Shown here piece after piece: positions 23,378 through 40,090 of a DNA stretch of 64,000 nucleotides. Position 1 is the first letter of the stretch. Each line of letters opens with the position of its first letter. Both the position numbers and the translations under genes were made by a program. The notes beneath the pieces are model-generated. The model made no database searches, was not told the DNA's origin, and saw nothing but the letters and a program-made list of their open reading frames with translations. Source of the DNA: an uncultured Eubacteriales bacterium (GTDB lineage Bacteria > Bacillota > Clostridia > Peptostreptococcales > Anaerovoracaceae); contig CACZAM010000005.1 in assembly GCA_902779185.1 (NCBI GenBank), positions 1 to 64,000 of the forward strand, given 5' to 3'.

Positions 23378-23383
23378 TTTTTA

Positions 23384-23413
23384 TTGCTAATCAATAAGCG
23401 AAAAATGTATAAT
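23384..23413 (+). promoter_or_regulatory. Promoter of hypE-hypD
   Basis: TTGCTA and TATAAT are separated by 18 bases. The transcription start would fall just before or inside the palindromic operator that follows, so repressor binding would block initiation. Confidence 0.65.
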
Positions 23414-23425
23414 ATTATTGGAAGT

Positions 23426-23445
23426 TTTTAGACCGCGGTCTAAAA
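23426..23445. promoter_or_regulatory. TetR-type operator, copy 1 (hypE)
   Basis: Perfect 20-bp palindrome TTTTAGACCGCGGTCTAAAA placed 12 bases downstream of the -10 box and 14 bases before the hypE start codon. Length and symmetry fit a TetR dimer. The only other copy in the window is in front of oppA. Confidence 0.85.
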
Positions 23446-23459
23446 CGGAGACTATAATT

Positions 23460-24383
23460 ATGCATGCGATCACAAATATACAGAAATACTCAATACATGA
23501 CGGAGACGGCATAAGAACGACAGTCTTCTTCAAGGGCTGCCATCTCAGATGCTGGTGGTGCCACAACCCCGAGACTCAGAATTTTGATCCCGAACTGCAG
23601 ATAGACATACCTAAGTGCACGGGCTGCGGCAGGTGCGAGGCAGTCTGCCCGGCAGGCGCCATAACGATGTCGGAGCCGGATGAAAATGGCAGAAAGGCTG
23701 TTATCGACCGGTCAAAGTGCATACTGTGCGGAAAGTGCGTAGATGTATGCCTCGGCAACTTCAGGGTGCTGGTCGGCAGGGAATATCCGATCAATGAGCT
23801 CGTAAGGATATGCCTCCAGGACCAGATGTTCTATGAGCAGTCAGGCGGCGGCGTCACTCTGTCCGGCGGCGAGGTCATGGCGATGGATCCCGACTATATC
23901 CAGACCCTGGTAAAAAGACTTTACCGTGAGGGCGTGGATGTCACTATAGACACATGCGGACAGGCTCCTTACAGCAACTTCGAGGCCATACTGCCGTATG
24001 TGCACACATGGCTTTACGATGTCAAGGTGATCGACGACGTGAAGCATAAGAAATACGTCGGAATGAGCAACAGGCTCATACTGGATAACCTCAAGGGCAT
24101 TGCGAAGGCCGGTGCCCGCATATACATAAGGATACCGACCGTAAAGGAAGTCAACGGAGACCCTGAGTCCATGGCGCAGATCATAGAATTCCTGAAGGAG
24201 AACGGCATACAGACTCCGCAGGTAAATCTTCTGCCGTATCACAGCACGGGGTCTCACAAATACGGCAAGCTCGGACGCGAATATCCGGCAGCAGAACTGA
24301 CGGCGCCGTCCGATGAGGAAATGAAATCATTCGTTGAACAGTGGAATAAAGCAGGTTTTGCTAATGTAAAGATCGGCGGTTAA
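23460..24383 (+). CDS. hypE: Glycyl-radical enzyme activase (HypE-type radical SAM)
   Basis: Radical S-adenosylmethionine enzyme that installs the glycyl radical on the adjacent dehydratase. The SAM cluster motif is KGCHLRCWWCHNPE (CxxxCxxC) near residues 26-37. Two extra 4Fe-4S ferredoxin motifs follow: CTGCGRCEAVCPAG and CILCGKCVDVC. SGGEVMAMDP is the SAM-binding GGE motif. The protein is 307 residues from the ATG at 23460. I prefer this start because GGAG lies upstream and homologues begin near HAITNIQ. It is 17 bases before hypD, the normal pairing. Confidence 0.92.
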   Translation: MHAITNIQKYSIHDGDGIRTTVFFKGCHLRCWWCHNPETQNFDPELQIDIPKCTGCGRCEAVCPAGAITMSEPDENGRKAVIDRSKCILCGKCVDVCLGNFRVLVGREYPINELVRICLQDQMFYEQSGGGVTLSGGEVMAMDPDYIQTLVKRLYREGVDVTIDTCGQAPYSNFEAILPYVHTWLYDVKVIDDVKHKKYVGMSNRLILDNLKGIAKAGARIYIRIPTVKEVNGDPESMAQIIEFLKENGIQTPQVNLLPYHSTGSHKYGKLGREYPAAELTAPSDEEMKSFVEQWNKAGFANVKIGG

Positions 24384-24400
24384 GCCGGACGGAGGAAAAA

Positions 24401-26773
24401 ATGGAAGAACGTGGAATGAACGCAAGGATCAAAGCTCTGAGAAAGGTCAGCATGGAGACTCAGCCTCACATCGATCTTGAGAGAGCGATCATCGAAACGG
24501 AAGTTTATAAGAAATGGGAAGACAAGGTATCACTTCCTGTACTGAGAGCCATGGTACTGAAGGAGTACTTCAGCAAGAAGACGCTCTATCTGGGAGAGGG
24601 CGAGCTCATCGTAGGTGAAAAGGGTAAGGACCCTCAGTCCTCGCCGACATTCCCTGAGCTCACATGCCACACTATCGAAGACATGTACATCATGAACGAC
24701 CGTGCCGTTGTTAACTACACCGTAACAAAGCAGGATCTCAAGGATCAGGAAGAGATCATCATCCCTTACTGGAAGGGAAAGTCCATGAGAGACAAGCTGA
24801 TCGCAGGCATGACCCACGAGTGGAGAAAGTGCTATGCGGCCGGTATGTTCACGGAGTTCATGGAGCAGAGAGGTCCCGGACACACATGCGGCGGCAAAAA
24901 TGTATTCATCAAGGGATACGCTGACTATAAAGAGGAAATACAGGCAGCGATCGATGCTCTCGATTTCATGAATGATCCTGAAGCGGTCGATAAGAAAGAC
25001 GAGCTCGAAGCCATGCTCATCGACTGCGACGCAGTCATGATACTTGGCGAAAGATATAAAAAGCTTCTGAAGGCTGAGGCTGCGAAGTGCGAAGATCCTG
25101 TGCGCAAGGCTGAACTCGAGCAGATGGCGGCAAACCTGGACGTAGTTCCTGCACATGCACCGCAGACATACTGGCAGGCTATCCAGCTTTACTGGTTCAC
25201 ACATCTTGCTGTTACTACAGAGCTCAACCCTTGGGACGCGTTCAGCCCGGGAAGGCTCGACCAGCATCTGTATCCGTACTATGAGAAGGACATCGAGGAT
25301 GGCATTCTCGATGACGAGAGAGCACTCGAGCTCCTTGAATGCCTCTGGGTCAAGTTCAACAACCAGCCTGCTCCTGTTAAGGTCGGCGTCACTCTCAAGG
25401 AGAGCGGAACTTATACAGACTTTGCAAACATCAATACAGGCGGCATCAAGGAAGACGGCACAAACGGCGTAAACGCTGTAAGCTACCTTATTCTCGACTG
25501 CATGGACGAGATGAAGCTGGTACAGCCTAACTCCAACGTTCAGATAAGCAAGAAGACTCCTCACAAGTTCCTCAAGAGAGCCTGCGAGATCTCAAGAGAG
25601 GGATGGGGACAGCCTGCATTCTATAATACCGATGAGATCGTACAGGAGCTGCTGAACGCAGGAAAGACTCTTGAAGATGCACGTCAGGGCGGCTCATCCG
25701 GATGCGTTGAGACAGGTTCCTGGGGCAATGAGGCTTACATCCTTACCGGATACCTCAACATCCCTAAGATCTTCCAGCTGACTCTTTACAACGGCTTTGA
25801 TGATCAGAGCGGCAAGCAGCTCGGACCTGAAACAGGTTATGCATGGGACTTCGATACCTATGAGGAGCTTTGGAACGCTTTTACGATCCAGCTGAAGCAC
25901 ATGGTAGACGTAAAGGTACGCGGAAATAACGTCATCGAAAAGCTCTACGCAAAGTATATGCCGGCTCCGTGCCTGTCGATCGTGACAAACGATTGCATCC
26001 AGAAGGGTAAAGACTACAACAACGGCGGTTCCAGATACAACACCAGATACATCCAGGGTGTTGGCATCGGAACAGTCACTGACTGCCTCGCGGCAATCAA
26101 ATACAATGTTTATGACAACAAGAACTTCACCATGAAGGAGCTCATGACTGCATTGGACGACAACTTTGTCGGTCACGAGGAGATCTTCAACATGGTGCAG
26201 AACAAGACGCCTAAGTACGGCAACGACGACGACTATGCTGACGACATCATGCAGGATGTATTCAGACAGTACAGGGATGAGGTGACAGGACGTCCGACTA
26301 TGTGCGGCGGACAGTATCACGTCGACATGCTGCCTACGACCTGCCACATCTACTTCGGTGAGGTAATAGGCGCCACAGCAAACGGCAGACTTGCAAAGAA
26401 GCCTGTATCCGAAGGTATCTCGCCTGAGAAATTCGCAGATACACACGGACCTACAGCTGTTATCAAGTCGTGCGCAAAGATGGATCACTGCTCAACGGGC
26501 GGAACGCTTCTGAACCAGAAGTTCACTCCGAGCGCTCTCGCAGGCGATACCGGACTCGAAAACCTGGCCAGCCTGATCCGTACATACTTCGCTATGGACG
26601 GACATCACATCCAGTTCAACGTCTTCGACAAGGAGACTCTCCTGGAGGCACAGAAGCATCCTGATGATTACAAGGATCTTATCGTGCGCGTGGCCGGCTA
26701 CTCAGATTATTTCAGGAACCTCGACGAGGAACTCCAGAACGAGATCATCAACAGAACGGCTCAGTCGTTCTAG
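24401..26773 (+). CDS. hypD: trans-4-hydroxy-L-proline dehydratase (glycyl radical enzyme)
   Basis: Removes water from trans-4-hydroxy-L-proline to give (S)-1-pyrroline-5-carboxylate. The 790-residue sequence follows Clostridioides difficile HypD (789 residues) closely as I remember it. Catalytic features are GGSSGCVETG with Cys435 and Glu437, and the glycyl-radical loop RVAGYSDYF with Gly766; C. difficile numbers are Cys434 and Gly765. TEFMEQRGPGHT and TELNPWDAFSPGRLDQHLYP, which line the active site in that subfamily, are conserved. Other glycyl radical enzymes such as pyruvate formate-lyase, choline lyase and glycerol dehydratase differ at these places. Start has CGGAGGAAAAA. It is the core of the locus and its product feeds the pyrroline-5-carboxylate dehydrogenase at 29.5 kb. 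Confidence 0.92.
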   Translation: MEERGMNARIKALRKVSMETQPHIDLERAIIETEVYKKWEDKVSLPVLRAMVLKEYFSKKTLYLGEGELIVGEKGKDPQSSPTFPELTCHTIEDMYIMNDRAVVNYTVTKQDLKDQEEIIIPYWKGKSMRDKLIAGMTHEWRKCYAAGMFTEFMEQRGPGHTCGGKNVFIKGYADYKEEIQAAIDALDFMNDPEAVDKKDELEAMLIDCDAVMILGERYKKLLKAEAAKCEDPVRKAELEQMAANLDVVPAHAPQTYWQAIQLYWFTHLAVTTELNPWDAFSPGRLDQHLYPYYEKDIEDGILDDERALELLECLWVKFNNQPAPVKVGVTLKESGTYTDFANINTGGIKEDGTNGVNAVSYLILDCMDEMKLVQPNSNVQISKKTPHKFLKRACEISREGWGQPAFYNTDEIVQELLNAGKTLEDARQGGSSGCVETGSWGNEAYILTGYLNIPKIFQLTLYNGFDDQSGKQLGPETGYAWDFDTYEELWNAFTIQLKHMVDVKVRGNNVIEKLYAKYMPAPCLSIVTNDCIQKGKDYNNGGSRYNTRYIQGVGIGTVTDCLAAIKYNVYDNKNFTMKELMTALDDNFVGHEEIFNMVQNKTPKYGNDDDYADDIMQDVFRQYRDEVTGRPTMCGGQYHVDMLPTTCHIYFGEVIGATANGRLAKKPVSEGISPEKFADTHGPTAVIKSCAKMDHCSTGGTLLNQKFTPSALAGDTGLENLASLIRTYFAMDGHHIQFNVFDKETLLEAQKHPDDYKDLIVRVAGYSDYFRNLDEELQNEIINRTAQSF

Positions 26774-26846: not shown

Positions 26847-27743
26847 ATGGCAGCGATAACAGAAGGCTACATGCCTTTTATGGGATATAAAACATACTAC
26901 AGGATCGTCGGCAAACGCACGGATAACGGAAAGGCTCCGCTGATCTGCCTGCATGGCGGTCCGGGCAGCACTCATAATTATTTCGAGGTGCTTGACAACA
27001 TAGCGGACGATGACAGCCGCATGGTCGTCATGTATGACCAGCTGGGATGCGGTCTCTCATACATCGAGGGGCATCCTGAACTGTGGACAAAAGAGACATG
27101 GATGAGTGAACTCTTTGCCCTGAGAGAGCATCTCGGCCTGGACGAATGCCATATAATCGGGCAGTCCTGGGGCGGGATGATGCAGATATGCCTTGGCATC
27201 GACTATAAGGAAGAAACAAAAGGCGTGAAAAGCTTTATCATCTCGAGCGGGCATCCTTCGAGCAGTCTCTGGGAAAGGGAAGGACTGCGCCGTATTGAAA
27301 TGATGCCTCAGGAGATGCAGGATGCGATAAACCATGCGCTCAGCACGGGTGACTTCAGCGGTGAAGCCTATGATGCTGCCGTGGAAGAATACATGGCCAG
27401 ATACTGTGATTTCTGGGAAAAAGAGCTTCCGGAATGCTGCACAAGGCCTAAGAAGGCCGGCAGAGAGGCCTATATATACGGATGGGGCCCTAATGAATTC
27501 GCGCCTGCGGGAACGCTTAAGGATTTTGAATACATAGACAGGCTGGGAGAGATAGATATACCTTCGCTCATAATGAGCGGCATTTCAGACCTGTGCTCAC
27601 CGCTTGTTGCAAAGACGATGCATGACGGAATAAAGGGTTCGGAGTGGATTTTGTGGGAAAGAGCAAGGCATACATGCTTTGTTGACAGACATGATGATTA
27701 CTGCGCTGAACTGATTAAGTGGATGAACAGACATGACGGATAA
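26847..27743 (+). CDS. Proline iminopeptidase-like hydrolase (S33)
   Basis: Serine aminopeptidase of 298 residues, without a signal peptide. HGGPGSTHNYF near residue 34 is the oxyanion signature of proline iminopeptidases. GQSWGGMM carries catalytic Ser107, Asp is probably in SGISDLCSP, and His in ARHTCFVDRH. These enzymes release N-terminal proline from peptides and some accept hydroxyproline. Between hypD and a beta-arabinofuranosidase gene the likely job is to free N-terminal Pro or Hyp from imported peptides. Its stop is followed immediately by the next start codon, so the two are translationally linked. Confidence 0.82.
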   Translation: MAAITEGYMPFMGYKTYYRIVGKRTDNGKAPLICLHGGPGSTHNYFEVLDNIADDDSRMVVMYDQLGCGLSYIEGHPELWTKETWMSELFALREHLGLDECHIIGQSWGGMMQICLGIDYKEETKGVKSFIISSGHPSSSLWEREGLRRIEMMPQEMQDAINHALSTGDFSGEAYDAAVEEYMARYCDFWEKELPECCTRPKKAGREAYIYGWGPNEFAPAGTLKDFEYIDRLGEIDIPSLIMSGISDLCSPLVAKTMHDGIKGSEWILWERARHTCFVDRHDDYCAELIKWMNRHDG

Positions 27744-29480
27744 ATGATTATGGGAAACAGCGTTGAGAATCCCCGCATCATCGATAACAGAGTGATACCG
27801 GAGCGCACACACCCGCCGCTTCACAGCATCAGACTGCTCCCGGGCTCACCTTTTTATGAAAGACAGAAGGACATGCTTGAGTTTCTGGAAAAACAGGATA
27901 CTGACAGCATGCTTTACAATTTCAGAAAGGCTGCAGGCCTGCCTACAGGAGCCGCAAAGCCAATGACAGGATGGGATTCCTGGGAATGCAAGCTCAGGGG
28001 CCATACGACCGGACACTATCTGTCAGGCCTTTCGCTGGCGTACGCGGCGACAGGAGATGAGGTGTTCAGGAACAAGGCAGCAGCAATAGTTGAAGGCTTT
28101 GCCGAATGCCAGCAGGCTTTTGCAGCATCAGGAAAAGTACGTCCCGGGTTTCTGAGCGCATATGACGAGGAGCAGTTCGATCTCCTTGAAGTGCTCACCC
28201 CATATCCCGAGATATGGGCTCCTTATTATACGCTGGACAAGATAATGACCGGCCTTCTGGACGCGTACAAACTGGCAGGGATCAGCCTGGCAACGGATGT
28301 GCTTTGTCCGCTTGGGGACTGGATATATGAACGCCTTTCCCGCCTGACTGATGAGCAGAGAGCAAGGATGTGGGATACATACATCGCCGGAGAATACGGA
28401 GCGATGAAATCCACGCTTGTGAGGCTGTACAGGATAAGCGGCAAAAGAGAACACCTCGACGCAGCCAGAATGTTTGAAAACGCGCGGCTGTTCGGTCAGA
28501 TGCGCGAAAACAGGGATGAACTCGATTCCATGCATGCAAACCAGCATATACCGCAGGTGACGGGAGCAATGGAGCTCTATGCTGTTACGGGCGATACGGG
28601 CTACTTTGACATAGCACGCAACTTCTTCAGGATCGTAACGCAGCATCACTGCTATAGCATTGGCGGTACAGGAGAGGAAGAGCGTTTCCGTGCGGCAGAC
28701 AGCGAATGCAGGTTCCTGACAGAACAAACAGCTGAAAGCTGTGCCAGCCTCAATATGCTCAGACTTACATCCACGCTGATAGAGTATGAGCCGTCCGTCC
28801 GCTGTGATCTGCTTGACTATTACGAACATACATTATTCAACCATATCCTCATGTCTTACAGCCATTGCGCTGACGGCGGAACCACATACTTCATGCCGCT
28901 TGCACCCGGAAGTAATAAGCATTACGAGACAGATGAGAACAGCTGCTGTCACGGGACCGGAATGGAGAGCAGGTTCAGGTTCATGAAAGATATTTTTTCA
29001 TATGAGGGGTGCGATGATGAAGCCGTGGTCAGAGTCAATCTTCCGGTCGCGTCATTCGCTGACGACGAAGAAAAGCTGACGGTAACCTTCTCTGAAGACG
29101 GACGTCTCGAGGTAAAAGCCGGTGCAGACATGAAAAGAAAGCTGGCTGTCAGGATCCCTGAATGGGCAAGAGAGAATTTTCCTGAAGCGGAGAACGGTTA
29201 CATATATTGCGGCAGACTAAGGGCAGATGAGACCGTTGCTTTCAATCTGCCGATGAAGCTGCGCAGGATAACAGCAGCTTCTGACAGCAGTTTCTATAAT
29301 CTTGCCTGGGGACCTTATCTGCTTGCAGCAATATCTGATGCTGCGGATTTCATTCATGCAGATATCACAAAGCTGGCAGAGATAACAGACGGAGACAGGG
29401 GAGAGTTTACAGACGGAGAGATCTGCTATAAGCCCCTGTATCGCGTAGATGAGGAGCACTACCACATTTATTTCAGATAA
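27744..29480 (+). CDS. GH127/GH146-like beta-L-arabinofuranosidase (DUF1680 family)
   Basis: A 578-residue (alpha/alpha)6-barrel hydrolase. Known members remove beta-L-arabinofuranose, including that linked to hydroxyproline in extensin, using a zinc-bound cysteine nucleophile. Here the zinc set is seen as AESCASLN (Glu331, Cys333) and NSCCHGTGMES (Cys401, Cys402). CCxGTGxE is closer to GH146-type members than to HypBA1, from memory. Family motifs GHTTGHYLSGLSLAYAATGD, HANQHIPQVTGAMELY and SIGGTGEEERF are also present. No signal peptide is visible, so the substrate must be imported. The gene begins at the base after the iminopeptidase stop. Other DUF1680 specificities cannot be excluded. Confidence 0.85.
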   Translation: MIMGNSVENPRIIDNRVIPERTHPPLHSIRLLPGSPFYERQKDMLEFLEKQDTDSMLYNFRKAAGLPTGAAKPMTGWDSWECKLRGHTTGHYLSGLSLAYAATGDEVFRNKAAAIVEGFAECQQAFAASGKVRPGFLSAYDEEQFDLLEVLTPYPEIWAPYYTLDKIMTGLLDAYKLAGISLATDVLCPLGDWIYERLSRLTDEQRARMWDTYIAGEYGAMKSTLVRLYRISGKREHLDAARMFENARLFGQMRENRDELDSMHANQHIPQVTGAMELYAVTGDTGYFDIARNFFRIVTQHHCYSIGGTGEEERFRAADSECRFLTEQTAESCASLNMLRLTSTLIEYEPSVRCDLLDYYEHTLFNHILMSYSHCADGGTTYFMPLAPGSNKHYETDENSCCHGTGMESRFRFMKDIFSYEGCDDEAVVRVNLPVASFADDEEKLTVTFSEDGRLEVKAGADMKRKLAVRIPEWARENFPEAENGYIYCGRLRADETVAFNLPMKLRRITAASDSSFYNLAWGPYLLAAISDAADFIHADITKLAEITDGDRGEFTDGEICYKPLYRVDEEHYHIYFR

Positions 29481-29503: not shown

Positions 29504-29553
29504 CAAGAAATAATACTTATAACACTTTGTATAAAATTAAAGGAGGGTATTAC

Positions 29554-31104
29554 ATGTACAAAGGATTTGCTAATGCAGTTGAAGTGGATTTCAGCATTCC
29601 TGAGAACAGAGAGAAGATGCTTGCTGCCTTTAAGCAGGTAGATGAAGAGAAGGGTCTGACATGCCCGCTTATCATCGGCGGTGAAAGGATCTTTACTGAG
29701 AAGAAGTTTGAATCGCTAAATCCTGCAAACAAGGAAGTCCTCGGCTATTCGAGCTCGGCAAGTGCGGAGCAGTGCGATCAGGCCATAAAGACAGCGCACG
29801 AGGCGTTCCTGAAATGGAAGAACACATCTCTCGATGAGAGGATACGCTGCATGCGTAAGCTGGCTCAGCTGCTCGATGAAAACAGATTCTACCTCGATGC
29901 CTGGAATGTTGAAGAAAGCGGTAAAAACTGGGGCGAGGCAGACGGTGAGCTCTGCGAGCTTCTTGACTTCATCAATTCATACTGCGTTCATATGCAGGAA
30001 CTCGAAAAGGGCATCCCTTGCATCCAGACGGCAGAATACAACAAGTGCGTATACATCCCAATGGGAGTCGGCGCTACCGTGTCGCCATGGAACTTCCCTG
30101 TGGGACTGTTTGCCAACATGCTCATAGCCGCAGCGATCACCGGCAATACCAGCGTAAACAAGCCTGCATCCAACACACCTATATCGGCTTTCAAGTTCTT
30201 CGAAGTGATGGAGAAGTGCGGGATCCCTGCAGGAGTTATCAACTTCCTGCCTGGTTCGGGTTCGGATATCGGTGACCTGATCGTCGATCATCCTCTTGTC
30301 AGATTCATCAACTTTACAGGTTCAAAGGAAGTCGGCTGCCGCATCTACGAAAGAGCTGCGAAAGTGAATCCGGGACAGAGATGGCTCAAGAGAGTAGTCG
30401 CTGAGATGGGCGGAAAGAACGCCATCATCATCGACTCATCGGCAAATGTTAAGAAAGCTGCTCAGGGAGTTGCAAGCTCTGCCTTTACGTTCCAGGGACA
30501 GAAGTGCTCAGCATGCTCCAGAGCAATCGTCATGAGAGATGTACATGATGAATTCGTCGAGGCTCTCATAGAGGAAGCTAAGGCTCTTAAGGCAAATCAG
30601 GGTGCAGGAAGGGAAGACAAGACAATCGGTCCTGTATCCAGCAAGGAAGCCTTTGACAAGATCGCAAAATACATAGAGATCGGCAGAGAAGAGGGCAATA
30701 TCGTGTTCGGAGGAACATACAGCGATGAAAAGGGATATTTCGTTGATCCTACCGTGATCGACGGTATCAGCCGCACAGACCGCGTCGCCAATGAGGAGAT
30801 ATTCGGACCTGTAGTCGCGGTTATTCCGGTCGACTCGTTCGATGAGGCTCTTGACATCGCAAACCAGACCGAGTACGGCCTCACAGGATCCGTATACAGC
30901 GAGACAAGAGAGAATGTGATCAAGGCAAAGAACGAATTCAACGTAGGCAATCTGTATTTCAACCGTAAGTGCACTGCAGCTGTAGTGCTCCAGCATCCGT
31001 TCGGAGGATTCAACCTTTCCGGTACAGATCACAAAACAGGAACACCTAACTACCTGACAAATTTCATGTATCTGAAGTCGATCTCTGAGGATCTTACGAA
31101 GTAA
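29554..31104 (+). CDS. rocA: 1-pyrroline-5-carboxylate dehydrogenase (RocA-like)
   Basis: NAD-dependent aldehyde dehydrogenase oxidising glutamate semialdehyde (open form of pyrroline-5-carboxylate) to glutamate. The 516-residue protein has the family catalytic segment FQGQKCSACSRAIV (nucleophile Cys), VAEMGGKNAIII with the general-base Glu, SPWNFPVG for NAD, and EEIFGPVVAV. The C-terminal NLYFNRKCT and PFGGFNLSGTDHKTGTPNYL are typical of RocA/PutA-type enzymes over other aldehyde dehydrogenases. I chose ATG 29554 because AAAGGAGGG precedes it. HypD makes pyrroline-5-carboxylate, so this enzyme is the next step. In other hydroxyproline users a reductase (ProC) makes proline instead; none is present in this window. 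Confidence 0.87.
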   Translation: MYKGFANAVEVDFSIPENREKMLAAFKQVDEEKGLTCPLIIGGERIFTEKKFESLNPANKEVLGYSSSASAEQCDQAIKTAHEAFLKWKNTSLDERIRCMRKLAQLLDENRFYLDAWNVEESGKNWGEADGELCELLDFINSYCVHMQELEKGIPCIQTAEYNKCVYIPMGVGATVSPWNFPVGLFANMLIAAAITGNTSVNKPASNTPISAFKFFEVMEKCGIPAGVINFLPGSGSDIGDLIVDHPLVRFINFTGSKEVGCRIYERAAKVNPGQRWLKRVVAEMGGKNAIIIDSSANVKKAAQGVASSAFTFQGQKCSACSRAIVMRDVHDEFVEALIEEAKALKANQGAGREDKTIGPVSSKEAFDKIAKYIEIGREEGNIVFGGTYSDEKGYFVDPTVIDGISRTDRVANEEIFGPVVAVIPVDSFDEALDIANQTEYGLTGSVYSETRENVIKAKNEFNVGNLYFNRKCTAAVVLQHPFGGFNLSGTDHKTGTPNYLTNFMYLKSISEDLTK

Positions 31105-31260: not shown

Positions 31261-32907
31261 ATGAAGAAGAGACTATTGGCTCTCCTCATGGTTGCTGCCA
31301 TGATCATTGCAACGCTTGCAAGCTGCAGCACACCAGGCGGAGACAGCGGCTCTGACGGAGGCGAAAAAGTGTTCAGGTATGCTGTTAACACAGAACCTAC
31401 TACTTTCGACCCTACAAAGGGCAACAGCATCGGAGACAACGAGATCCAGCATGCAATTACAGAGGGACTTACCCGTAATACGGGCGGAGAAGTAACTCCT
31501 GGTATCGCTGAGTCCTGGGATATCTCTGATGACGGTACTGTCTACACATTCCATCTGCGCGACGCTAACTGGAGTGACGGACAGCCTATCACAGCTAACG
31601 ATTTCGTTTACAGCTGGCAGAGACTGGTAGATCCTAACGTTGGTTCACCTTACTCCTGGTTCCTCGACACTATCTGTGTAGAGAACGCAGCTGCTGTTGA
31701 AGCAGGTGAGAAGGATCCTAGCGAACTCGGTATCAAGGCTATCGACGACAAGACTCTGGAAGTCAAGCTTACACAGCCGATGACAGTACTTCTTTCAGCA
31801 CTCGGTATGCAGTCCAACCTTGCTCCGCTCCGTCAGGATATCGTAGAGCAGTATGGCGACGAGTTTGCTGCAACAGCTGACAAGAACGTATACTCCGGTC
31901 CGTTCGTTCTCACATCAACAGAGAACAACCTGTATGTGTTCGAGAAGAACCCTGAGTTCTGGGATGCAGACAACATCAAGCTCGACAGAGTTGAGCTCAA
32001 CTACATTGAGAAGCCTGATACACAGCTTGCTATGTATGAGAACGGCGAACTCGACTTTGTAAGACTCGACAACGCAGTAGTTGAAAACTACAAGGACAAT
32101 GATGACTACGGCGTATACCTCAATGGTAACGTTGACTACTGCTACATCAACCCTAACAGCGACAATCCTGTATGGGCCAACAAGAACTTCAGACTTGCTC
32201 TGAACTATGCTCTCAACAGAGTTGAGTACAACCAGCTGGCTAACAGCGGACTCTACAATCCTTACAACGCGCTTTGCTTCCCTGGCCTCTCCGGCAAGGA
32301 CGGCAAGACATACGGCGAGACATATGATGTTGATTCATATGCATACCCTATGGAAGGCGATGTAGCCAAGGCTAAGGAATACCTCGACGCTGCAATGAAG
32401 GAGCTCAACATCTCTGATCCTTCCGAAATCGAGATCGAGTTCGTAACAACAGACGCTGAGTCCAACAAGAAGATAGCTGAGGTACTGCAGGAGCAGTGGC
32501 AGAACGCTCTCGGCATCAAGGTCAACATCCGTCAGGTCACATACGCTGACATCTACGGCGAGGTATATCCTAAGTTCGACTATGAGATCGGATACGCTGG
32601 ATGGGGCCCTGACTTCGACGACCCTACAACATACCTCAACCTGTTCAGATCGGACATCAACTGGTACACACCTTACGGCAACCCTGACTTCGACGCTAAG
32701 CTCGATGCAGCCATGAAGGAAGTAGATGATCCTAACGCAAGAATGGATCTCCTGAATGAAGCTGAGCAGATCCTCATCGAGGACGGAGCATGGGTACCTC
32801 TTCAGGCAAGGAACCAGTCCTACCTGCTGAGCCCTAAGATGAAGGATGTAACATTCTACTCCTTCAGCATCAATATCGACTGGGCATACGCTGACGTAGC
32901 AGAATAA
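31261..32907 (+). CDS. oppA: Oligopeptide-binding lipoprotein of the ABC transporter
   Basis: Extracellular solute-binding protein, family 5 (OppA/DppA), 548 residues. The N-terminus MKKRLLALLMVAAMIIATL and lipobox LASC (Cys22) show lipoprotein anchoring, followed by a Gly/Ser linker. YAVNTEPTTFDPTKGNS, NDFVYSWQRLVDP and YCYINPNSDNPVWANKNFRLALNYALNR are typical OppA segments. OppA-type proteins accept longer peptides than DppA types, which would suit glycopeptide uptake, although specificity cannot be read from sequence. Start follows CAAGGAGGATTCT. It heads the transporter operon behind the second operator. Confidence 0.9.
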   Translation: MKKRLLALLMVAAMIIATLASCSTPGGDSGSDGGEKVFRYAVNTEPTTFDPTKGNSIGDNEIQHAITEGLTRNTGGEVTPGIAESWDISDDGTVYTFHLRDANWSDGQPITANDFVYSWQRLVDPNVGSPYSWFLDTICVENAAAVEAGEKDPSELGIKAIDDKTLEVKLTQPMTVLLSALGMQSNLAPLRQDIVEQYGDEFAATADKNVYSGPFVLTSTENNLYVFEKNPEFWDADNIKLDRVELNYIEKPDTQLAMYENGELDFVRLDNAVVENYKDNDDYGVYLNGNVDYCYINPNSDNPVWANKNFRLALNYALNRVEYNQLANSGLYNPYNALCFPGLSGKDGKTYGETYDVDSYAYPMEGDVAKAKEYLDAAMKELNISDPSEIEIEFVTTDAESNKKIAEVLQEQWQNALGIKVNIRQVTYADIYGEVYPKFDYEIGYAGWGPDFDDPTTYLNLFRSDINWYTPYGNPDFDAKLDAAMKEVDDPNARMDLLNEAEQILIEDGAWVPLQARNQSYLLSPKMKDVTFYSFSINIDWAYADVAE

Positions 32908-33028: not shown

Positions 33029-33949
33029 ATGACAAAGTATGTTATAAAACGTGTCATCGCAGCCATATTGACTCTTTGGGCACTGGTGACCATAGTCTTC
33101 TTCCTTACAAGGCTGATGCCGGGAGAACCGTTCACTAACCCGAAGCTGACTCCACAGGTCATAGAAAATATGACAAAGTATTATGGCTTCGACAAACCAC
33201 TGATTGTTCAGTATTTCCAGTATCTGGGCAATCTGATCCACGGTGACTTCGGATTCTCGATGAAGTACACCAATAAGACTGTAAATTATATTATCGGACA
33301 GACATTCCCGTTCTCTGCAGACCTCGGTATCAGAGCGCTGTGCCTGGCTATTTCGTTCGGCCTGGTGCTGGGTATCCTTGCCGCACGCAAGAGGGGCACA
33401 AAGATCGACTTCTTCTGCGTTATCATCGCGATAATAGGAACAAGTATTCCGGACTTCATCATGGGAGCTCTGCTGCAGTACTTTTTCGGAATCAAATGGG
33501 GACTTCTGCCGGTAGCTTTATATAAAGGTTTCGAATATACGATCCTTCCTGCGACTGCTCTGGCGTTCTATACGCTTGCATCTGTATCACGTATCATGCG
33601 TGCAAGCATGCTCGAGGTAACATCGCAGGATTACATCAAGACCGCGAGGTCTAAGGGACTTTCCGAAGCTCGCATAACAGTAAAGCATCAGATAAGGAAC
33701 GCTATCATGCCGGTCATGACAATACTGGGACCTACCGTTGCTTCAGTGCTTACCGGAACGTTCGTTATTGAAGCTATCTTCGCTATCCCGGGCATGGGTA
33801 AGTATTACGTCGAGAGCGTAAACAACAATGACTATTCCATGATCCTGGGCATGACCGTGTTCTACGGTATATTTCTCGTTACAGCAAATCTGATCGTAGA
33901 TATTCTCTACGGTGTTGCGGATCCTCGTGTCCGTATAGGAAAGAAGTAG
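33029..33949 (+). CDS. oppB: Oligopeptide ABC transporter permease 1
   Basis: Membrane permease of 306 residues with six predicted segments. The N-terminal VIKRVIAAILTLWALVTIVFFLTRLMPGEP is the OppB/DppB signature. The EAA-type loop SKGLSEARITVKHQIRNAIMPVMTILG, which contacts the ATPases, lies near residue 210. Start has CAGGAGGAACACG. It forms the membrane channel with the next gene and is co-transcribed with it. Confidence 0.92.
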   Translation: MTKYVIKRVIAAILTLWALVTIVFFLTRLMPGEPFTNPKLTPQVIENMTKYYGFDKPLIVQYFQYLGNLIHGDFGFSMKYTNKTVNYIIGQTFPFSADLGIRALCLAISFGLVLGILAARKRGTKIDFFCVIIAIIGTSIPDFIMGALLQYFFGIKWGLLPVALYKGFEYTILPATALAFYTLASVSRIMRASMLEVTSQDYIKTARSKGLSEARITVKHQIRNAIMPVMTILGPTVASVLTGTFVIEAIFAIPGMGKYYVESVNNNDYSMILGMTVFYGIFLVTANLIVDILYGVADPRVRIGKK

Positions 33950-33958
33950 GTGGCAGAC

Positions 33959-34882
33959 ATGATGGATTTGAATAAAGATATGTTTGTCATCAAAGGCAAA
34001 AATGTAGAACAGATGGAAACCATATCCAGACCGTCTCTGTCCTTCTGGCAGGACGCCTGGAGAAGATTCCGTAAAAACAGGGCAGCGTTCATAGGACTCT
34101 GCATCATCCTGGTTTATGTACTGCTTGCCATATTCGCTCCTATGCTGAGCAAGTATGGATTCTCCACGATGGACGCTGCCAATCAGCATGCAGCACCATC
34201 AGCCGCACACTGGTTCGGTACGGATGCAACAGGCCGTGACCAGTGGGTGCGTACATGGATGGGTGCAAGAGTATCGCTCTCGATCGGACTCTTTGCAGCA
34301 ACCATCAACATGTGTGTAGGCGCGGTCATCGGAGGATTCTGCGGATTTTACGGCGGCAAGCTCGATATGATAGTGATGCGTATCGTAGATATCCTTTACG
34401 GCATACCTAGCCTGATCATCACTATCCTGGTCATGATGGTACTCGGAAAGGGAGTTGCTCCGCTGATCGTAGCTTTATGTGTGGTCGGATGGATTGGCAC
34501 CTGCCGTTTCGTACGAGGCGAGGTCTACAGGCTCAAGGAGCAGGATTTCGTAATGGCGGCAAAGGTTCTCGGAGTTTCCGACACTGCTATCATCATCAAG
34601 CATATTATCCCGAACATCGTGGGCATGCTTGTAACAAACCTCTGCCTTGCGATCCCGGGCGCTATCTTCCAGGAGGCTTTCCTGTCATATATCGGACTCG
34701 GAATCGCGCCTCCTAGATGCAGCTGGGGTATTCTGGCAAAGGAAGGTATCGCATACCTGAGAGTACATCCGCATGAAGTAGCTATTCCGGCTCTCATCAT
34801 ATGTACTACCATGCTGGCTCTCAACCTGCTTGGCGACGGTCTGCGTGATGCAGTCGATCCAAAGCTGAGAGGAACTGAATAG
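33959..34882 (+). CDS. oppC: Oligopeptide ABC transporter permease 2
   Basis: Permease of about 307 residues, OppC/DppC type. It has an N-terminal cytoplasmic segment (SFWQDAWRRFRKNRAAFIGL), a periplasmic part with HWFGTDATGRDQWVRTWMGAR, and the EAA loop AKVLGVSDTAIIIKHIIPNIVGMLV. I prefer the ATG at 33959 because AGGTGG lies six bases before it. A GTG nine bases upstream, directly after the oppB stop, would add three residues. Partner of OppB. Confidence 0.92.
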   Translation: MMDLNKDMFVIKGKNVEQMETISRPSLSFWQDAWRRFRKNRAAFIGLCIILVYVLLAIFAPMLSKYGFSTMDAANQHAAPSAAHWFGTDATGRDQWVRTWMGARVSLSIGLFAATINMCVGAVIGGFCGFYGGKLDMIVMRIVDILYGIPSLIITILVMMVLGKGVAPLIVALCVVGWIGTCRFVRGEVYRLKEQDFVMAAKVLGVSDTAIIIKHIIPNIVGMLVTNLCLAIPGAIFQEAFLSYIGLGIAPPRCSWGILAKEGIAYLRVHPHEVAIPALIICTTMLALNLLGDGLRDAVDPKLRGTE

Positions 34883-34896: not shown

Positions 34897-35925
34897 ATGG
34901 CAGAAAAGAAAGAAACCATTCTTGAACTTAAGAACGTTGTATACTCCTTCAAGACATACGGCGGAGAGGTCAAGGCTGTACGTGACGTCAGCTTCGACGT
35001 TCGCGCCGGCGAAGTGCTCGGTATCGTAGGCGAGTCCGGATGCGGAAAGAGCGTTACCGCTCAGTGCATCCTCAGGCTCAATCCTGAACCGCCGGGGTTC
35101 TTCGAGGGAGGAGAGATAATCTACAAGGGTGAAAACATCCTCGAGATGGATAACAAGGCTATCCGCAAGATCAGGGGAGGTGAGATAGGATTCGTATTCC
35201 AGGATCCTATGACCTCGCTGAACCCGACAATGAAGGTCGGAAAGCAGATCATGGAGGTATTCCATGGCAGAGAAGGTATCTCCAAGCAGGAGGTCAGGGA
35301 GAAAGCTATTGAGATAATGAAGCTGGTCGGCATCTCCGATACAGAGAAGAGATTCAACCAGTATCCTCATGAGCTCTCCGGCGGCATGAAACAGCGTGTC
35401 ATGATAGCCATAGCTCTCGTATCGAGACCAAGCGTTATCATCTGCGACGAGCCGACGACTTCACTCGACGTGACCATCGAGGCTCAGATACTTGAGCTCC
35501 TGCTCGAGCTGAGGGAGACACTGGGCACATCGATCATCATGATCACTCACGACCTCGGTGTCATCGCCAAGATCTGCGACCGTGTAGTCGTAATGTACGG
35601 CGGCAAGATCGTAGAGAAGGGTACCGCGAGGGAGATATATTATGAGACAGCGCACCCTTATACGAGCGGACTGATGCATTCCATCGCAAGGCTCGAGACA
35701 AGCAGAGGCGAGAAGCTCTCACCGATCGAGGGAACGCCGCCTGATCTGTTTTCGCCTCCTGTGGGATGCCCGTTCGCTGCAAGATGCGACTACTGCATGG
35801 ACGTATGCAACGCGTATCCGCCTGAGGAGTACATGCTCTCGGATGAGCATATGACAAGATGCTGGCTGCAACATGAAATGGCACCGGATACAGAGTTCAG
35901 AAGGAAGAAAGGAGAGGTGAAATAA
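34897..35925 (+). CDS. oppD: Oligopeptide ABC transporter ATPase 1
   Basis: ATP-binding subunit of 342 residues. Walker A GESGCGKSVT near residue 47, Q-loop VFQDPMTSLNP, ABC signature LSGGMKQR, Walker B VIICDEPTTSLD, and switch HDLGV are all intact. The C-terminal oligopeptide-transporter extension with PVGCPFAARCDYCMDVC may bind an Fe-S cluster, as reported for related DppD proteins. Its last base overlaps the next start codon. Confidence 0.93.
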   Translation: MAEKKETILELKNVVYSFKTYGGEVKAVRDVSFDVRAGEVLGIVGESGCGKSVTAQCILRLNPEPPGFFEGGEIIYKGENILEMDNKAIRKIRGGEIGFVFQDPMTSLNPTMKVGKQIMEVFHGREGISKQEVREKAIEIMKLVGISDTEKRFNQYPHELSGGMKQRVMIAIALVSRPSVIICDEPTTSLDVTIEAQILELLLELRETLGTSIIMITHDLGVIAKICDRVVVMYGGKIVEKGTAREIYYETAHPYTSGLMHSIARLETSRGEKLSPIEGTPPDLFSPPVGCPFAARCDYCMDVCNAYPPEEYMLSDEHMTRCWLQHEMAPDTEFRRKKGEVK

Positions 35926-36896
35926 TGGTAGATTATAATGCGGAACCTCTCGTACAGGTAAAGGACCTGTGCAAATACTTCCATGTGGGCAGACATGCTA
36001 CGCTGAAGGCTGTTGACGGAGTATCGTTCAACATCTATAAGGGTGAGACAGTCGGCCTCGTAGGCGAATCCGGATGCGGAAAATCGACAGCCGGAAGATG
36101 CCTGATAAGGCTTTATGAGCCTACAAGCGGTCAGGTCATTTTCGACGGCAAGGATATAACCAAGCTGAAGAAACAGGAGCAGAAGGAGTTCTGCCACCGC
36201 GTGCAGATGATATTCCAGAATCCGTATGCATCGCTGAACCCGCGTATGACGGTAAAGGAAATCGTAGGCGAGGGACTTAAGCTGCAGGGCAAGTCAAACG
36301 AAGAGATCGAAGCAAAAGTAGAAACGCTTCTCAAGACGGTCGGACTCAATAAGGATCACATGTCCAGATTCCCTCATGAGTTCTCGGGCGGACAGAGACA
36401 GCGTATCGGAATAGCAAGAGCGCTGTCCGTAGATCCTGAGTTCATTATCTGTGACGAGCCGATATCAGCTCTGGACGTATCCATCCAGGCTCAGGTGCTC
36501 AATATGCTCAACGAGCTTCAGGACAACCTCGGGCTTACATATCTGTTCATCGCCCACGACCTATCGGTAGTAAAGTATCTGTCAGACAGAGTAGTGGTCA
36601 TGTATCTGGGAACCATCGTAGAGATGGCTGATTCGGAAGAGCTGTACGCCAATCCGATGCATCCTTATACAAAGGCGCTTCTCTCGTCGATCCCTGAGGC
36701 GGATCCTGACAAGGCTCAGGCCAACAGGAGGATCCCTATCAAGGGTGAGATCTCGAGCCCGATCAATCCTAAGGACTGCTGCAGATTCGCAAGCAGATGC
36801 GAATTTGCTACAGAGAGATGCTTCAATGAGATGCCGGTTGCAAGAGAAATGTCACCGGGCCATATCGTGGCATGTCATCTGATGGATGAAAAATAA
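35925..36896 (+). CDS. oppF: Oligopeptide ABC transporter ATPase 2
   Basis: Second ATP-binding subunit, 323 residues. Walker A GESGCGKSTAGR near residue 51, Q-loop IFQNPYASLNPRM, signature FSGGQRQR, Walker B FIICDEPISALD, and switch HDLSV are intact. The C-terminal CCRFASRCEFATERC is the oligopeptide-transporter extension. It completes a full OppABCDF set under one promoter. Confidence 0.93.
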   Translation: MVDYNAEPLVQVKDLCKYFHVGRHATLKAVDGVSFNIYKGETVGLVGESGCGKSTAGRCLIRLYEPTSGQVIFDGKDITKLKKQEQKEFCHRVQMIFQNPYASLNPRMTVKEIVGEGLKLQGKSNEEIEAKVETLLKTVGLNKDHMSRFPHEFSGGQRQRIGIARALSVDPEFIICDEPISALDVSIQAQVLNMLNELQDNLGLTYLFIAHDLSVVKYLSDRVVVMYLGTIVEMADSEELYANPMHPYTKALLSSIPEADPDKAQANRRIPIKGEISSPINPKDCCRFASRCEFATERCFNEMPVAREMSPGHIVACHLMDEK

Positions 36897-36917
36897 ATAG
36901 GTTATAACAATAAAAAG

Positions 36918-36965: not shown

Positions 36966-36991
36966 ATCATATCATTGGCAGGAGTTAACAA

Positions 36992-38233
36992 TTGGACAAG
37001 TCTTTCTACATTGAAAACAGAAACAGTCTCTACAACATGCTGCCGGGAGGCTCGCTTCTGGCTGTTTTTTCGGGTACTGAAGTCATCAAGACAAACGATG
37101 AGTACTACCCGTTTTTTGCTGACCGCAATTTCGTATATCTTACGGGCCTTACCTGCAAAGAAGCGGTGCTGCTTGCGAGCAAGGATGCGGACGGAAGCGT
37201 GAACGAGAGGCTGTATATACTTCCTCCTGATCTTCATGCGGAGCGCTGGACGGGTGTGCGGGTAAAGCCTGACGAAGCTGAGGCTGTATCGGGCGTAAAG
37301 GATATACGCAGTACCGATTCGTTCATTAAGGATTTCAGGGCACTCGCATGGTCGGGCAATTACGGCATCATATACCTTGATCTGTACAAATCAGATGACG
37401 CAAACAGAGACCGGGCACAGCACGAATTCAAGCATTATGTTCATCATAATCTGCCGTTCCTTCTTTTCGGAAATTCGGATCCGCTGTTCCGCAAACTCAG
37501 GCTGTATAAAAAGCCTTGTGAAATAGAGGCTCTCAGGACTGGTGAAAAGATAACCGGCGAGGGCATACTTGCCATGATGACGAATTCGGAGCCGGGCATG
37601 CCTGAGTACCGTTACAAGGCGAAATTCGACAAGGCCATACACGAATACGCTCCGTATATTTACGGATTCCCGCCGATAATCTCATCCGGAAAGAACAACT
37701 TCGTGATCCACAACTATGCATATGACGGCATAGCTCAGGACGGTGACATGATACTGAACGATGTCGGCGTGATGTGGGATTTTCTTATCACTGACGTATC
37801 GCGCAGCTGGCCGTGCAACGGAAAATTCTCTGACAGGCAGAAGCTGCTGTACGAATGCGCTCTCGCAACATCAGACTACATGTTTTCGATAGTAAAGCCG
37901 GGAATGAGGATGGATGCTGTGGATGCGACCATAAAGGAGTACAACGCACAGCTGCTGGTTGATGCCGGAGTCCTCGATGATGCGGCAAATATCAGAAAAT
38001 ACATGTGGCACGGCGGAGCTCATCATATAGGATTTGACGTGCACGACGTGGTTGAAACGCCTGAGTTTATTGCCCCCAATATGGTGTTCTGCATAGATGT
38101 GGGCATATATCACGAAGAATGGGGGATTGGGTTCAGAATAGAGGACAACTGCCTTATTACGGAGGACGGCTGTGAGAATCTCTCAGCAGCCATACCGCGC
38201 CGTATAGATGATATAGAGAATGTGATGCGGTAA
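36992..38233 (+). CDS. Aminopeptidase P-type M24 metallopeptidase, variant metal site
   Basis: Cleaves the N-terminal residue from X-Pro peptides if it behaves like its family. It has 413 residues: an N-terminal creatinase-like domain to about 165, then the pita-bread M24 domain. Metal ligands expected are Asp257 (NDVGV), Asp268 (TDVSRSWP), His344 or His345 (HHIGF), a first Glu, and Glu384 (RIED). The first Glu position is Asp369 (CIDVGIY), where the family normally has E in (T/V)xEPG. The start is TTG behind CAGGAGTTAACA; no ATG fits. It is downstream of oppF and next to a second aminopeptidase P, consistent with handling Pro/Hyp peptides. Asp in place of Glu may change metal preference or lower activity. 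Confidence 0.83.
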   Translation: MDKSFYIENRNSLYNMLPGGSLLAVFSGTEVIKTNDEYYPFFADRNFVYLTGLTCKEAVLLASKDADGSVNERLYILPPDLHAERWTGVRVKPDEAEAVSGVKDIRSTDSFIKDFRALAWSGNYGIIYLDLYKSDDANRDRAQHEFKHYVHHNLPFLLFGNSDPLFRKLRLYKKPCEIEALRTGEKITGEGILAMMTNSEPGMPEYRYKAKFDKAIHEYAPYIYGFPPIISSGKNNFVIHNYAYDGIAQDGDMILNDVGVMWDFLITDVSRSWPCNGKFSDRQKLLYECALATSDYMFSIVKPGMRMDAVDATIKEYNAQLLVDAGVLDDAANIRKYMWHGGAHHIGFDVHDVVETPEFIAPNMVFCIDVGIYHEEWGIGFRIEDNCLITEDGCENLSAAIPRRIDDIENVMR

Positions 38234-38269
38234 GACAGACCGCTTCATATAAAACCGGAGATTAAAATT

Positions 38270-40060
38270 ATGAATGTAAACGCAGCGAGAATCGCTGAAC
38301 TGAGAAAGCTGATGAAAGACCGCGGGATAGACGCATATATCATCCCTTCGGCCGACTATCATCAGAGTGAATATGTAAGCGCGCATTTCAAGGCCCGGGA
38401 GTACGTGACCGGCTTCAACGGATCACTCGGTACTGCTGTTATAACGCAGAATGACGGAGGCCTCTGGACCGACGGCAGATATTTTACCCAGGCTAAGAAC
38501 CAGCTCGAAGGGAGCGGGGTGCGCCTTATGAAGCTTCACGTTGAAGGCACGCCGGAACTGACTGACTGGATAATCAGCAATGTGCCGGAAGGCGGTACTG
38601 TAGGTTTTGACGGAAGGACTGTTTCTGTGAAAGACGGCCGCGAATACATGGAAGTGTTCGGCGCAAAAGGGATCGGCATTCAGAGTTCGATGGATCTGGT
38701 AGGAGAGATATGGAAGGATCGTCCACCGCTGTCCGAAAAGCCGTGCTTCTATCTTGAGGAGAAATGGACCGGCGAGAGCACCGCGCATAAGCTTTCAAGA
38801 GTACGCGCCAGAATGGATGAGTGCGGAGCAGACGTACACATCATAGCTGCAATAGATGATGTGTGCTGGCTGCTGAACTTCAGGGGAGACGATATCGACT
38901 TCTTCCCGCTGGTGCTTTGCTATGCAGCTGTTTACAAAGATCATGTCGACCTTTACATCGATGAGCGCAAACTGAATAACGGGATCAGATCACACTTCAT
39001 GGAAGACGGTGTCGTCCTGAAGCCATATAACGATATCTATGAAGATGTAAAGAAGATACCGGAGAACATGACGGCGCTGATAGATCCTGCGCGCTTCAAC
39101 CACGAGCTCGCTTCTTCACTGAAGTGCAGAAAGGTCGAAGACCACAATCCGACTGTCCTCATGAAGGCCATGAAGAATCCGGTCGAAATAAAGAATATTA
39201 AGAATGCGGAGCTGAAAGACAGTGTGGCTGTCACAAAGTTCATCTTCTGGGTCAAGAACAACTATGACAAAATGGAGATAACGGAGCTTTCCGCATCCGA
39301 AAAACTCACATCCCTGCGCCGCGGGCAGGAAGGGTATATAAGAGACTCGTTCGCTCCGCTGCAGGCCTTTGGTGAGCATGCCGCAATGATGCATTACTCT
39401 CCGACACCTGAATCAGATGTTGTATTGAAGGAGGGAGAGATGCTTCTTTCAGATACCGGCGGAGGCTACTATGAAGGCTCTACCGATATAACGAGGACCA
39501 CAGTTCTCGGCCACATAGAACCGAGACTCAAAAAGTACTATACGGCTGTGTTCCGGGCCGGCCAGCACCTTGCTGCAGCAAAGTTCCTTTACGGCAACCA
39601 CGGATGGTCGCTTGACGTTCTTTGCCGCCAGCCTATCTGGGACCTTGGTCTCGACTACCAGTGCGGGACAGGTCACGGTTTCGGATACCTCGGCTGCATA
39701 CATGAACCTCCGACAGGCTTCAGATGGTATATGGTTCCGGAAAGGGATGAGCATCATCAGTTTGAAGAGGGCATGTGCGTGACCATCGAGCCGGGCATTT
39801 ATGAAGAGGGCGATTTCGGGATCCGCATCGAGAACAACGTTGTGACTGTAATGGATGAAAAGAACAAGTACGGTCAGTTCATGCGCTTCGAGATGATGAC
39901 TTTTGTCCCGATCGATCTTGATGCCATCGACCCTGAAGAGCTCACAAAGTCCGAAAGGGAATGGCTCAATGACTATCACAGACAGTGCTATGAAAAGCTG
40001 AGCCCGTACATGACTGATGAAGAGAATGAATGGCTCAGAGAGTATACGCGTGCTATATGA
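38270..40060 (+). CDS. Xaa-Pro aminopeptidase (aminopeptidase P, three-domain form)
   Basis: M24B peptidase of 596 residues. This is the longer three-domain layout known from eukaryotic XPNPEP1 and some bacteria: two creatinase-like domains (1 to about 300) followed by the catalytic domain. The ligand motifs are complete: LLSDTGGGYYEGSTDITRT (two Asp), GTGHGFGYLG (His), CVTIEPGIYEEG (Glu) and FGIRIENNVV (Glu). Start follows ACCGGAGATTAAAATT. It removes the residue before proline and probably before hydroxyproline, after which the iminopeptidase could free the imino acid. It closes the locus, before a terminator. Confidence 0.9.
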   Translation: MNVNAARIAELRKLMKDRGIDAYIIPSADYHQSEYVSAHFKAREYVTGFNGSLGTAVITQNDGGLWTDGRYFTQAKNQLEGSGVRLMKLHVEGTPELTDWIISNVPEGGTVGFDGRTVSVKDGREYMEVFGAKGIGIQSSMDLVGEIWKDRPPLSEKPCFYLEEKWTGESTAHKLSRVRARMDECGADVHIIAAIDDVCWLLNFRGDDIDFFPLVLCYAAVYKDHVDLYIDERKLNNGIRSHFMEDGVVLKPYNDIYEDVKKIPENMTALIDPARFNHELASSLKCRKVEDHNPTVLMKAMKNPVEIKNIKNAELKDSVAVTKFIFWVKNNYDKMEITELSASEKLTSLRRGQEGYIRDSFAPLQAFGEHAAMMHYSPTPESDVVLKEGEMLLSDTGGGYYEGSTDITRTTVLGHIEPRLKKYYTAVFRAGQHLAAAKFLYGNHGWSLDVLCRQPIWDLGLDYQCGTGHGFGYLGCIHEPPTGFRWYMVPERDEHHQFEEGMCVTIEPGIYEEGDFGIRIENNVVTVMDEKNKYGQFMRFEMMTFVPIDLDAIDPEELTKSEREWLNDYHRQCYEKLSPYMTDEENEWLREYTRAI

Positions 40061-40070
40061 CAACAGGTTT

Positions 40071-40090
40071 TACAAAAGAGGCCTTTTGTA
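40071..40090 (+). terminator. Terminator closing the hydroxyproline locus
   Basis: TACAAAAG-AGGC-CTTTTGTA gives an 8-bp stem with a four-base loop, ten bases after the peptidase stop, followed by TTAT. It is A/T-rich but well placed. Confidence 0.65.

Follow-up and report, generated by a model that had tools for sequence, protein, structure and literature searches.

A predicted locus for the uptake and fermentation of arabinosylated hydroxyproline peptides in an uncultured Eubacteriales bacterium and its relatives

Background

Hydroxyproline-rich glycoproteins are a main structural protein of plant walls. Here we describe a block of genes on a 64-kb stretch of DNA (the window) from an uncultured Eubacteriales bacterium, likely a gut anaerobe, in which the hydroxyproline dehydratase HypD lies together with a predicted GH146-type beta-L-arabinofuranosidase (hereafter the glycosidase), proline peptidases and an oligopeptide ABC transporter (Opp). 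We propose, from gene content and from its recurrence in relatives, that the block probably serves the import and fermentation of arabinosylated hydroxyproline (Hyp) peptides from plant wall glycoproteins. The initial annotation had read it as a Hyp-glycopeptide locus, and all genes that it named were found again as open frames with Pfam and NCBIfam searches, on the plus strand between 23460 and 40060; the extent of the block should be widened to the neighboring tetR gene and two palindromes (Table 1).

Two described systems come closest. In the HypAA-HypBA2-HypBA1 system of Bifidobacterium longum and Xanthomonas euvesicatoria, beta-L-arabinofuranosidases likewise act on the Hyp-linked arabinofuranose (Hyp-Araf) of the extensin type, but the sugar is cut off outside the cell, or imported as a disaccharide for carbon, and the available text of these reports describes neither Hyp catabolism nor peptide import (PMC6085000, PMC7263609, PMC10850190). 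In the window, by contrast, the enzyme is predicted to be cytoplasmic and is tied to Opp, proline peptidases and HypD, while the linked GH121 and GH43 genes of the B. longum system are missing from the block (the search for them covered only the genes of the block). With the second system, the HypD-ProC route of Hyp utilization in gut Clostridia, the locus shares HypD, its activase and pyrroline-5-carboxylate (P5C), and its relatives share proC and proline reductase; as excerpted, the reports describe this route for free Hyp, name collagen first as the source and mention no glycosidase or Opp (PMC7077986, PMC9044972, PMC11574389). The window hypD has no adjoining proC, being flanked instead by hpdA and a proline iminopeptidase (PIP) gene with a P5C dehydrogenase in the block, whereas the related loci L143 and L087 do contain proC.

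Each part of the block belongs to a known family, and what is new is the joining of two known routes. Among the literature matches listed, no title or abstract opening joins HypD with a beta-L-arabinofuranosidase, although an earlier mention is possible, and no bacterial route that uses the amino acids of Hyp-rich glycoproteins is described. The gene set recurs in relatives and partly in other gut bacteria, and its likely use is the sugar-coated Hyp peptides of plant walls as food. If true, a plant source would be known for HypD, an abundant gut enzyme, an uncharacterized GH146 clade and its oligopeptide transporter would have a specific substrate, and carbohydrate metabolism would be joined with that of amino acids (Stickland) under a single regulon.

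Gene order and co-occurrence within the genus

Conservation of gene order in relatives, one of the points on which the initial annotation had staked its reading, was found: the order HypD-PIP-glycosidase-Opp is present in the window and in five related loci (L004, L005, L006, L007 and L010), where L004 is counted with the genus since its genes are 83-98% identical to those of the window. Relatives of tetR occupy the same position in L004, L005 and L007, and L005 is without the P5C dehydrogenase. Opp lies 3' of HypD in all six HypD loci of the genus with the glycosidase versus none of the 15 without it that extend at least 10 kb downstream. Two of these 15, in genomes G005 and G041, have a POT peptide transporter in place of Opp, alongside aminopeptidases P, PIP, YitT proteins and a prolidase; in G005 proC is close by. 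Genes of relatives were named by tblastn against the window and L005 proteins, neighboring genes outside the hidden Markov model (HMM) scans from their sequence, and our own open-frame calling was sometimes on the wrong strand (PIP in L005; OppB and OppC in L154 and L178).

The glycosidase is present in 10 of the 119 genomes searched, its own included, and all ten fall in this genus, whose profile comprises 46 genomes (10 with the glycosidase, 36 without). OppA at about 80% identity or more was found in 9/10 of the former versus 0/36 of the latter (Fisher 9e-9), the sole glycosidase genome without such an OppA being the 77%-complete G028. In four genomes (G007, G022, G029 and G040) Opp and the short aminopeptidase P stand together in the available stretch, away from the glycosidase, and thus the link between glycosidase and Opp is not just physical. 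L-arabinose isomerase (AraA) follows a like pattern, occurring in 5/10 versus 0/36 (p 1.8e-4). Genes resembling a two-component system and a sugar ABC transporter precede araA in four of the five stretches, with an FGGY-like kinase in three; the AraA of L184 scored 630.8 bits (cut-off 622), and the kinase and binding protein of L185 were also HMM-scanned. These two associations of the glycosidase, with one peptide transporter and with AraA, suggest arabinosylated peptides.

Two of the conserved loci carry an insert (L005:11927-18541 and L010:2460-9073) made up of a DUF3798 protein, an ABC ATPase, two BPD_transp_2 permeases and a PepQ-like M24 peptidase. It sits at different places in the two HypD-glycosidase operons and may take up the same nutrients by a second route, in which case DUF3798 would gain a function.

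Spread in Lachnospiraceae and other Clostridia

A sample of 397 Lachnospiraceae genomes, drawn evenly from a larger group (the family to which G119, source of L015, belongs), contained 27 with a glycosidase match at E <= 1e-80, of which 13 hold the close clade (E <= 1e-145) and 14 only distant paralogs. The close sequences form a single 31-row clade, with support 99/98, in a tree of 45 rows. HypD is present in 12 of the 13 close-clade genomes (all except G485) versus 25 of the 384 others (8e-13), and in 0/14 of the genomes with only distant paralogs.

The nearest likeness to the window is seen in L143 and L144, which carry on one strand HpdA-HypD, proC, a TetR gene, an NrdG-like gene, the glycosidase and OppABCDF, with an opposite-strand GntR gene between. 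L143 lies in the genome of L019, Muricomes intestini DSM 29489, where HypD, proC, glycosidase and Opp thus stand together; its proC, NrdG2 and GntR were scanned with HMMs. The TetR proteins of L143 and L144 are 42-43% identical to that of the window and their genes sit between proC and the glycosidase. These two loci and the window genus fall in different subclades of the glycosidase, which implies two or more origins of the HypD-glycosidase-Opp linkage, or else its retention with frequent loss. In L151-L154 the glycosidase adjoins OppABCDF, with an M24 gene between in three (that of L151 is PepQ-like), and M24 peptidase genes lie near it in L148 and L149. Overall, Opp or M24 stands beside the glycosidase in 8/15 close-clade loci versus 0/17 distant loci, in stretches of 4.7 to 21 kb, some of which could hide such genes.

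Proline reductase was considered as a further partner of the locus and rejected. PrdA occurs in 9/13 close-clade genomes, 34/384 others and 3/14 with distant paralogs, and in 8 of the 9 close-clade genomes it lies apart from the glycosidase, by 361 kb in G356 and on a different contig in the rest; PrdA is therefore treated as shared metabolism and not as part of one locus. Close relatives of the glycosidase do lie near prdA, prdB and prdC (scanned in L015) and a proline-racemase-family gene at L015:11767-18363 and L023:699-7191, where a TetR gene 35% identical to that of the window is also found.

A wider sample of 391 Clostridia genomes gave six glycosidase matches, the window genome included. 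In L193 (G587) the glycosidase overlaps an aminopeptidase P gene; L194-L197 (L195 partly masked, L196 of 8.8 kb) contained no OppA, OppB, OppC, HypD or M24 match.

The glycosidase and HypD

The initial label for the glycosidase was GH127/GH146-like. Comparison of sequence and fold places it best in GH146, and the GH127 half of the label was dropped. Relative to characterized members of GH146 (BT0349, 5opj/8qf8; Bll3HypBA1, 8k7x), the window enzyme has only 578 residues and is about 29% identical to the nearest solved enzyme. Its match to BT0349 stops near chain residue 650 of 770. In BT0349 a C-terminal jelly roll shields the active site, according to the available text of PMC10850190; from where the match ends, this domain seems absent in the window enzyme. 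The zinc and catalytic residues are kept. By alignment, E217, E313, E331, C333, C401 and C402 correspond to E578, E694, E723, C725, C804 and C805 of Bll3HypBA1 (functional residues as given in excerpts of PMC10850190) and are invariant in a 37-row alignment, with E331, C333, C401 and C402 as the Cys3-Glu zinc site, C401 as the nucleophile, E313 as acid/base and E217 in the place of the essential E578. For GH127, the same excerpts give R273, H194, H142 and Y145 as substrate-site residues. XeHypBA1 and Bll4HypBA1, both called GH146 in the parts of the reports used here, act on Araf-beta-Hyp (PMC6085000, PMC10850190). Inspection by eye revealed no signal peptide, and the enzyme is predicted to be cytoplasmic.

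The glycosidase evolves faster than its neighbor genes, yet is clearly under purifying selection. Its ratio of nonsynonymous to synonymous substitution (dN/dS) is 0.10 against L006 and 0.13 against L004; in the comparison with L006 the values are 0.02 for HypD, 0.01 for P5C dehydrogenase, 0.07 for PIP and 0.07 for OppA. Ratios against more distant relatives are unusable because synonymous sites are near saturation.

HypD clears the equivalog cut-off of NF043068 and aligns over its length with the solved HypD 6vxc. A hand reading of this alignment against the residue list for the difficile enzyme found 10/10 active-site residues kept (His160, Asp278, Ser334, Asp339, Phe340, Cys434, Glu436, Tyr450, Thr645 and Gly765), all tied to substrate binding or catalysis in the excerpted account of PMC7077986. 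That HypD, activated by its activase, would turn trans-4-Hyp into P5C is strongly supported by these likenesses. The genome also encodes a second glycyl radical enzyme (G000:C32:18398-20746, L003), which at 543.5 bits is under the HypD cut-off; similar second copies are present in many genomes of the genus.

Palindromes and regulation

A perfect 20-bp palindrome, TTTTAGACCGCGGTCTAAAA, lies between tetR and hpdA. With up to three mismatches allowed, its single other match in the window is at 31180, 5' of oppA (0 expected in 100 shuffles), and the recurrence before oppA of a palindrome that stands beside tetR suggests one regulon. The 14-bp core, with up to two mismatches, was found 5' of hpdA in 15 of the 27 HypD loci that hold that stretch, against an expectation of 0.15 per 64 kb (block shuffle of single bases). 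Further copies of the core lie in G005 and G041, 5' of the prolidase gene and of the gene preceding the POT transporter, and in G005 additionally 5' of an aminopeptidase P gene; none was found in the stretches with lone glycosidase genes or araA. The natural reading is that the palindrome would be the TetR site of a Hyp/Pro-peptide regulon. A one-mismatch copy of the core also lies at L152:750, between proline-racemase-like and helix-turn-helix genes (named from sequence) in a Lachnospiraceae glycosidase-Opp locus.

Proposed pathway and alternative explanations

We hypothesize that utilization would proceed as follows. Short Hyp-(Araf)n peptides, released outside the cell by other microbes, would enter through OppABCDF. 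The predicted cytoplasmic GH146 enzyme would strip beta-L-Araf from Hyp, and the proline peptidases probably cannot pass Hyp while it is arabinosylated. The aminopeptidases P and the iminopeptidase would, by their family function, free Pro and Hyp, and the activase would enable HypD to convert trans-4-Hyp to P5C by dehydration. In the window organism P5C would be oxidized to glutamate; in relatives it may go to proline via ProC and then to proline reductase. L-arabinose would be used via AraA in some genomes and perhaps be lost in others, and the TetR repressor, acting on the palindromes before hpdA and oppA, is predicted to turn the set on together.

The Hyp-glycopeptide reading of the initial annotation is supported, and on firmer ground than that annotation could offer, by the kept gene order, by the co-occurrence of Opp and AraA and by the like gene set in two Lachnospiraceae loci, with extensin as one of several possible sources. 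No gene of the block would cut extensin outside the cell or remove the alpha-1,3 Araf cap; an extracellular protease, GH121 and GH43 are all lacking there (genes elsewhere in the genome were not searched for), and the glycopeptides would thus come from other microbes or through genes elsewhere. Peptide hormones and solanaceous lectins also carry Hyp-Araf, according to excerpts of PMC8012813 and PMC6085000, and fit as well as extensin. On balance, we lean with some reserve toward a fuller account, a nutrient system of a new kind in gut anaerobes, in which whole arabinosylated Hyp peptides would be imported by a dedicated Opp, de-arabinosylated inside by a peptide-type GH146 subfamily (the 31-row clade) and their Hyp dehydrated by HypD, a glycyl radical enzyme, for amino-acid fermentation, all under one TetR regulon, such that plant extensin, and not only collagen, would feed gut HypD.

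Several observations weigh against the proposed pathway. Within the genus, HypD is not significantly more frequent in genomes that carry the glycosidase (8/10 versus 21/36, p 0.28); the glycosidase genomes G028 (77% complete) and G029 (95%) have no HypD over the cut-off, and 5 of the 11 genus glycosidase genes, from the ten genomes plus L004, lie outside a HypD locus (L008, L009, L011, L012 and L105). OppA homologs of 53-57% identity occur in three genomes without the glycosidase, and of 34-57% in five. In the window genome itself (G000, 79% complete) neither araA (E <= 1e-20) nor PrdA (E <= 1e-80) is matched; at the latter threshold PrdA is found in 35/46 genus genomes. The palindrome core stands 5' of oppA in only 4/10 genomes, among them G040 with its separate Opp operon, and no copy was found in L143 or L144. 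In Lachnospiraceae, 7/15 close-clade loci show neither Opp nor M24 in the available stretch. Related genomes are non-independent samples; the cut between close and distant glycosidases was chosen after seeing the score gap, although a tree with 9/17 distant loci agrees with it, and in the Lachnospiraceae sample only the first 2-3 glycosidase, HypD and PrdA candidates per genome were scored, with some loci short.

We consider it unlikely, but the most serious of the alternatives, that the core is a locus for unglycosylated Hyp/Pro peptides (from collagen or plants) on which the glycosidase hitch-hikes, serving free beta-L-arabino-oligosaccharides taken up by a sugar transporter. The HypD loci of G005 and G041 have no glycosidase and still carry prolidase, PIP, aminopeptidases P, the POT transporter and the same palindrome, and BT0349, a GH146 enzyme, also cleaves beta-1,2-arabinobiose as reported in excerpts of PMC10850190. 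Clade glycosidases stand beside sugar ABC transporter-like genes in L013, L015, L018-L020 and L146, which likewise counts against the peptide account; these genes are mostly unscanned, and the single scanned substrate-binding protein (L015) was under its cut-off. However, the distribution of the glycosidase follows that of the Opp peptide transporter and not just that of HypD (9/10 versus 0/36 for OppA), and the HypD-glycosidase-Opp linkage recurs in another glycosidase subclade.

More improbable still is that, after the import of plant peptides or small glycosides such as fragments of arabinogalactan-protein or rhamnogalacturonan-II, the glycosidase acts on some other sugar or beta-L-Araf linkage that they bear. 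Its low identity to solved enzymes leaves room for this, and its fold group includes the aceric acid hydrolase BT1003 and an arabinofuranosidase specific for beta-1,3 linkages, as excerpts of PMC10850190 relate; the co-occurrence with AraA favors L-arabinose, however, and that with HypD in Lachnospiraceae favors Hyp. A patchwork of housekeeping peptide genes without a common role, as might be suspected of a block lying between MurF, Ddl and ClpB, with MurF and Ddl holding their position in L005 and L007, is very hard to credit and was rejected, given the conserved order, the repeated linkage that includes the Lachnospiraceae loci, the OppA profile of genes lying apart and the common palindromes.

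Features of the window

The block is tightly packed, with gaps of 0 bp between PIP and the glycosidase and 17 bp between HpdA and HypD, the longest being 156 bp (5' of oppA) and 121 bp (5' of oppB). It is flanked by cell-wall genes (MurF, Ddl) and ClpB. OppB, OppC, OppD and OppF of the window were named from sequence, order and tblastn to relatives, not by HMM, and the profile scan of hpdA began at 23463, three bases into the frame listed with its likely ATG. The P5C dehydrogenase is under the narrower TIGR01237 threshold (627.3 bits, cut-off 659.65). Rfam and tRNA scans of the window gave no matches, and promoter and terminator scans were close to background.

Table 1. Genes and sites of the block, with window coordinates
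Feature	Position	Strand	Evidence
TetR-family regulator, predicted repressor of the block	22773..23348	+	PF00440 61.9 bits
20-bp perfect palindrome TTTTAGACCGCGGTCTAAAA, predicted TetR operator, just 5' of hpdA	23426..23445	none	
hpdA, HypD-activating radical SAM enzyme	23460..24383 (likely ATG 23460)	+	NF043069 426.7 bits, cut-off 425
HypD	24401..26773	+	NF043068 1438.8 bits, cut-off 1100; 6vxc match 1218 bits
Proline iminopeptidase (PIP, S33)	26847..27743	+	NF045945 443.2 bits, cut-off 400
GH146-type beta-L-arabinofuranosidase, predicted cytoplasmic	27744..29480	+	PF07944 298.2 bits
P5C (glutamate semialdehyde) dehydrogenase	29527..31104 (likely ATG 29554)	+	NF002852 679.7 bits, cut-off 648
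Second palindrome copy, 1 mismatch, 5' of oppA	31180..31199	none	
OppA, oligopeptide-binding lipoprotein	31261..32907	+	PF00496 281.6 bits; lipobox LASC read from sequence
OppB permease	33029..33949	+	71-83% identity to glycosidase-adjoining OppB of L143, L144, L151-L154
OppC permease	33950..34882	+	Open frame, tblastn to relatives
OppD ATPase	34897..35925	+	Open frame, comparison with relatives
OppF ATPase	35925..36896	+	Open frame, comparison with relatives
Aminopeptidase P, short form, M24	36992..38233	+	PF00557, PF05195
Aminopeptidase P, long form, M24	38270..40060	+	PF00557, PF16188, PF16189

Three further features of the window were noted. A YitT-like membrane protein is encoded 3' of the block (41425-42390), and two YitT-like genes lie within the HypD locus of G005 and of G041 (L087 and L088; PF02588 scanned in L088); a role of these proteins in proline or peptide transport is conceivable. 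A U32 peptidase with a DUF3656 'collagenase' domain (54146-56413) shares the window with the Hyp locus. Finally, the stretch 66-17848 holds in a row two xanthine dehydrogenase-type molybdenum hydroxylases, amidohydrolases, a large oxidoreductase, a carbamoyltransferase, an amino acid kinase and an M20 peptidase, a set that we take to resemble anaerobic purine fermentation.

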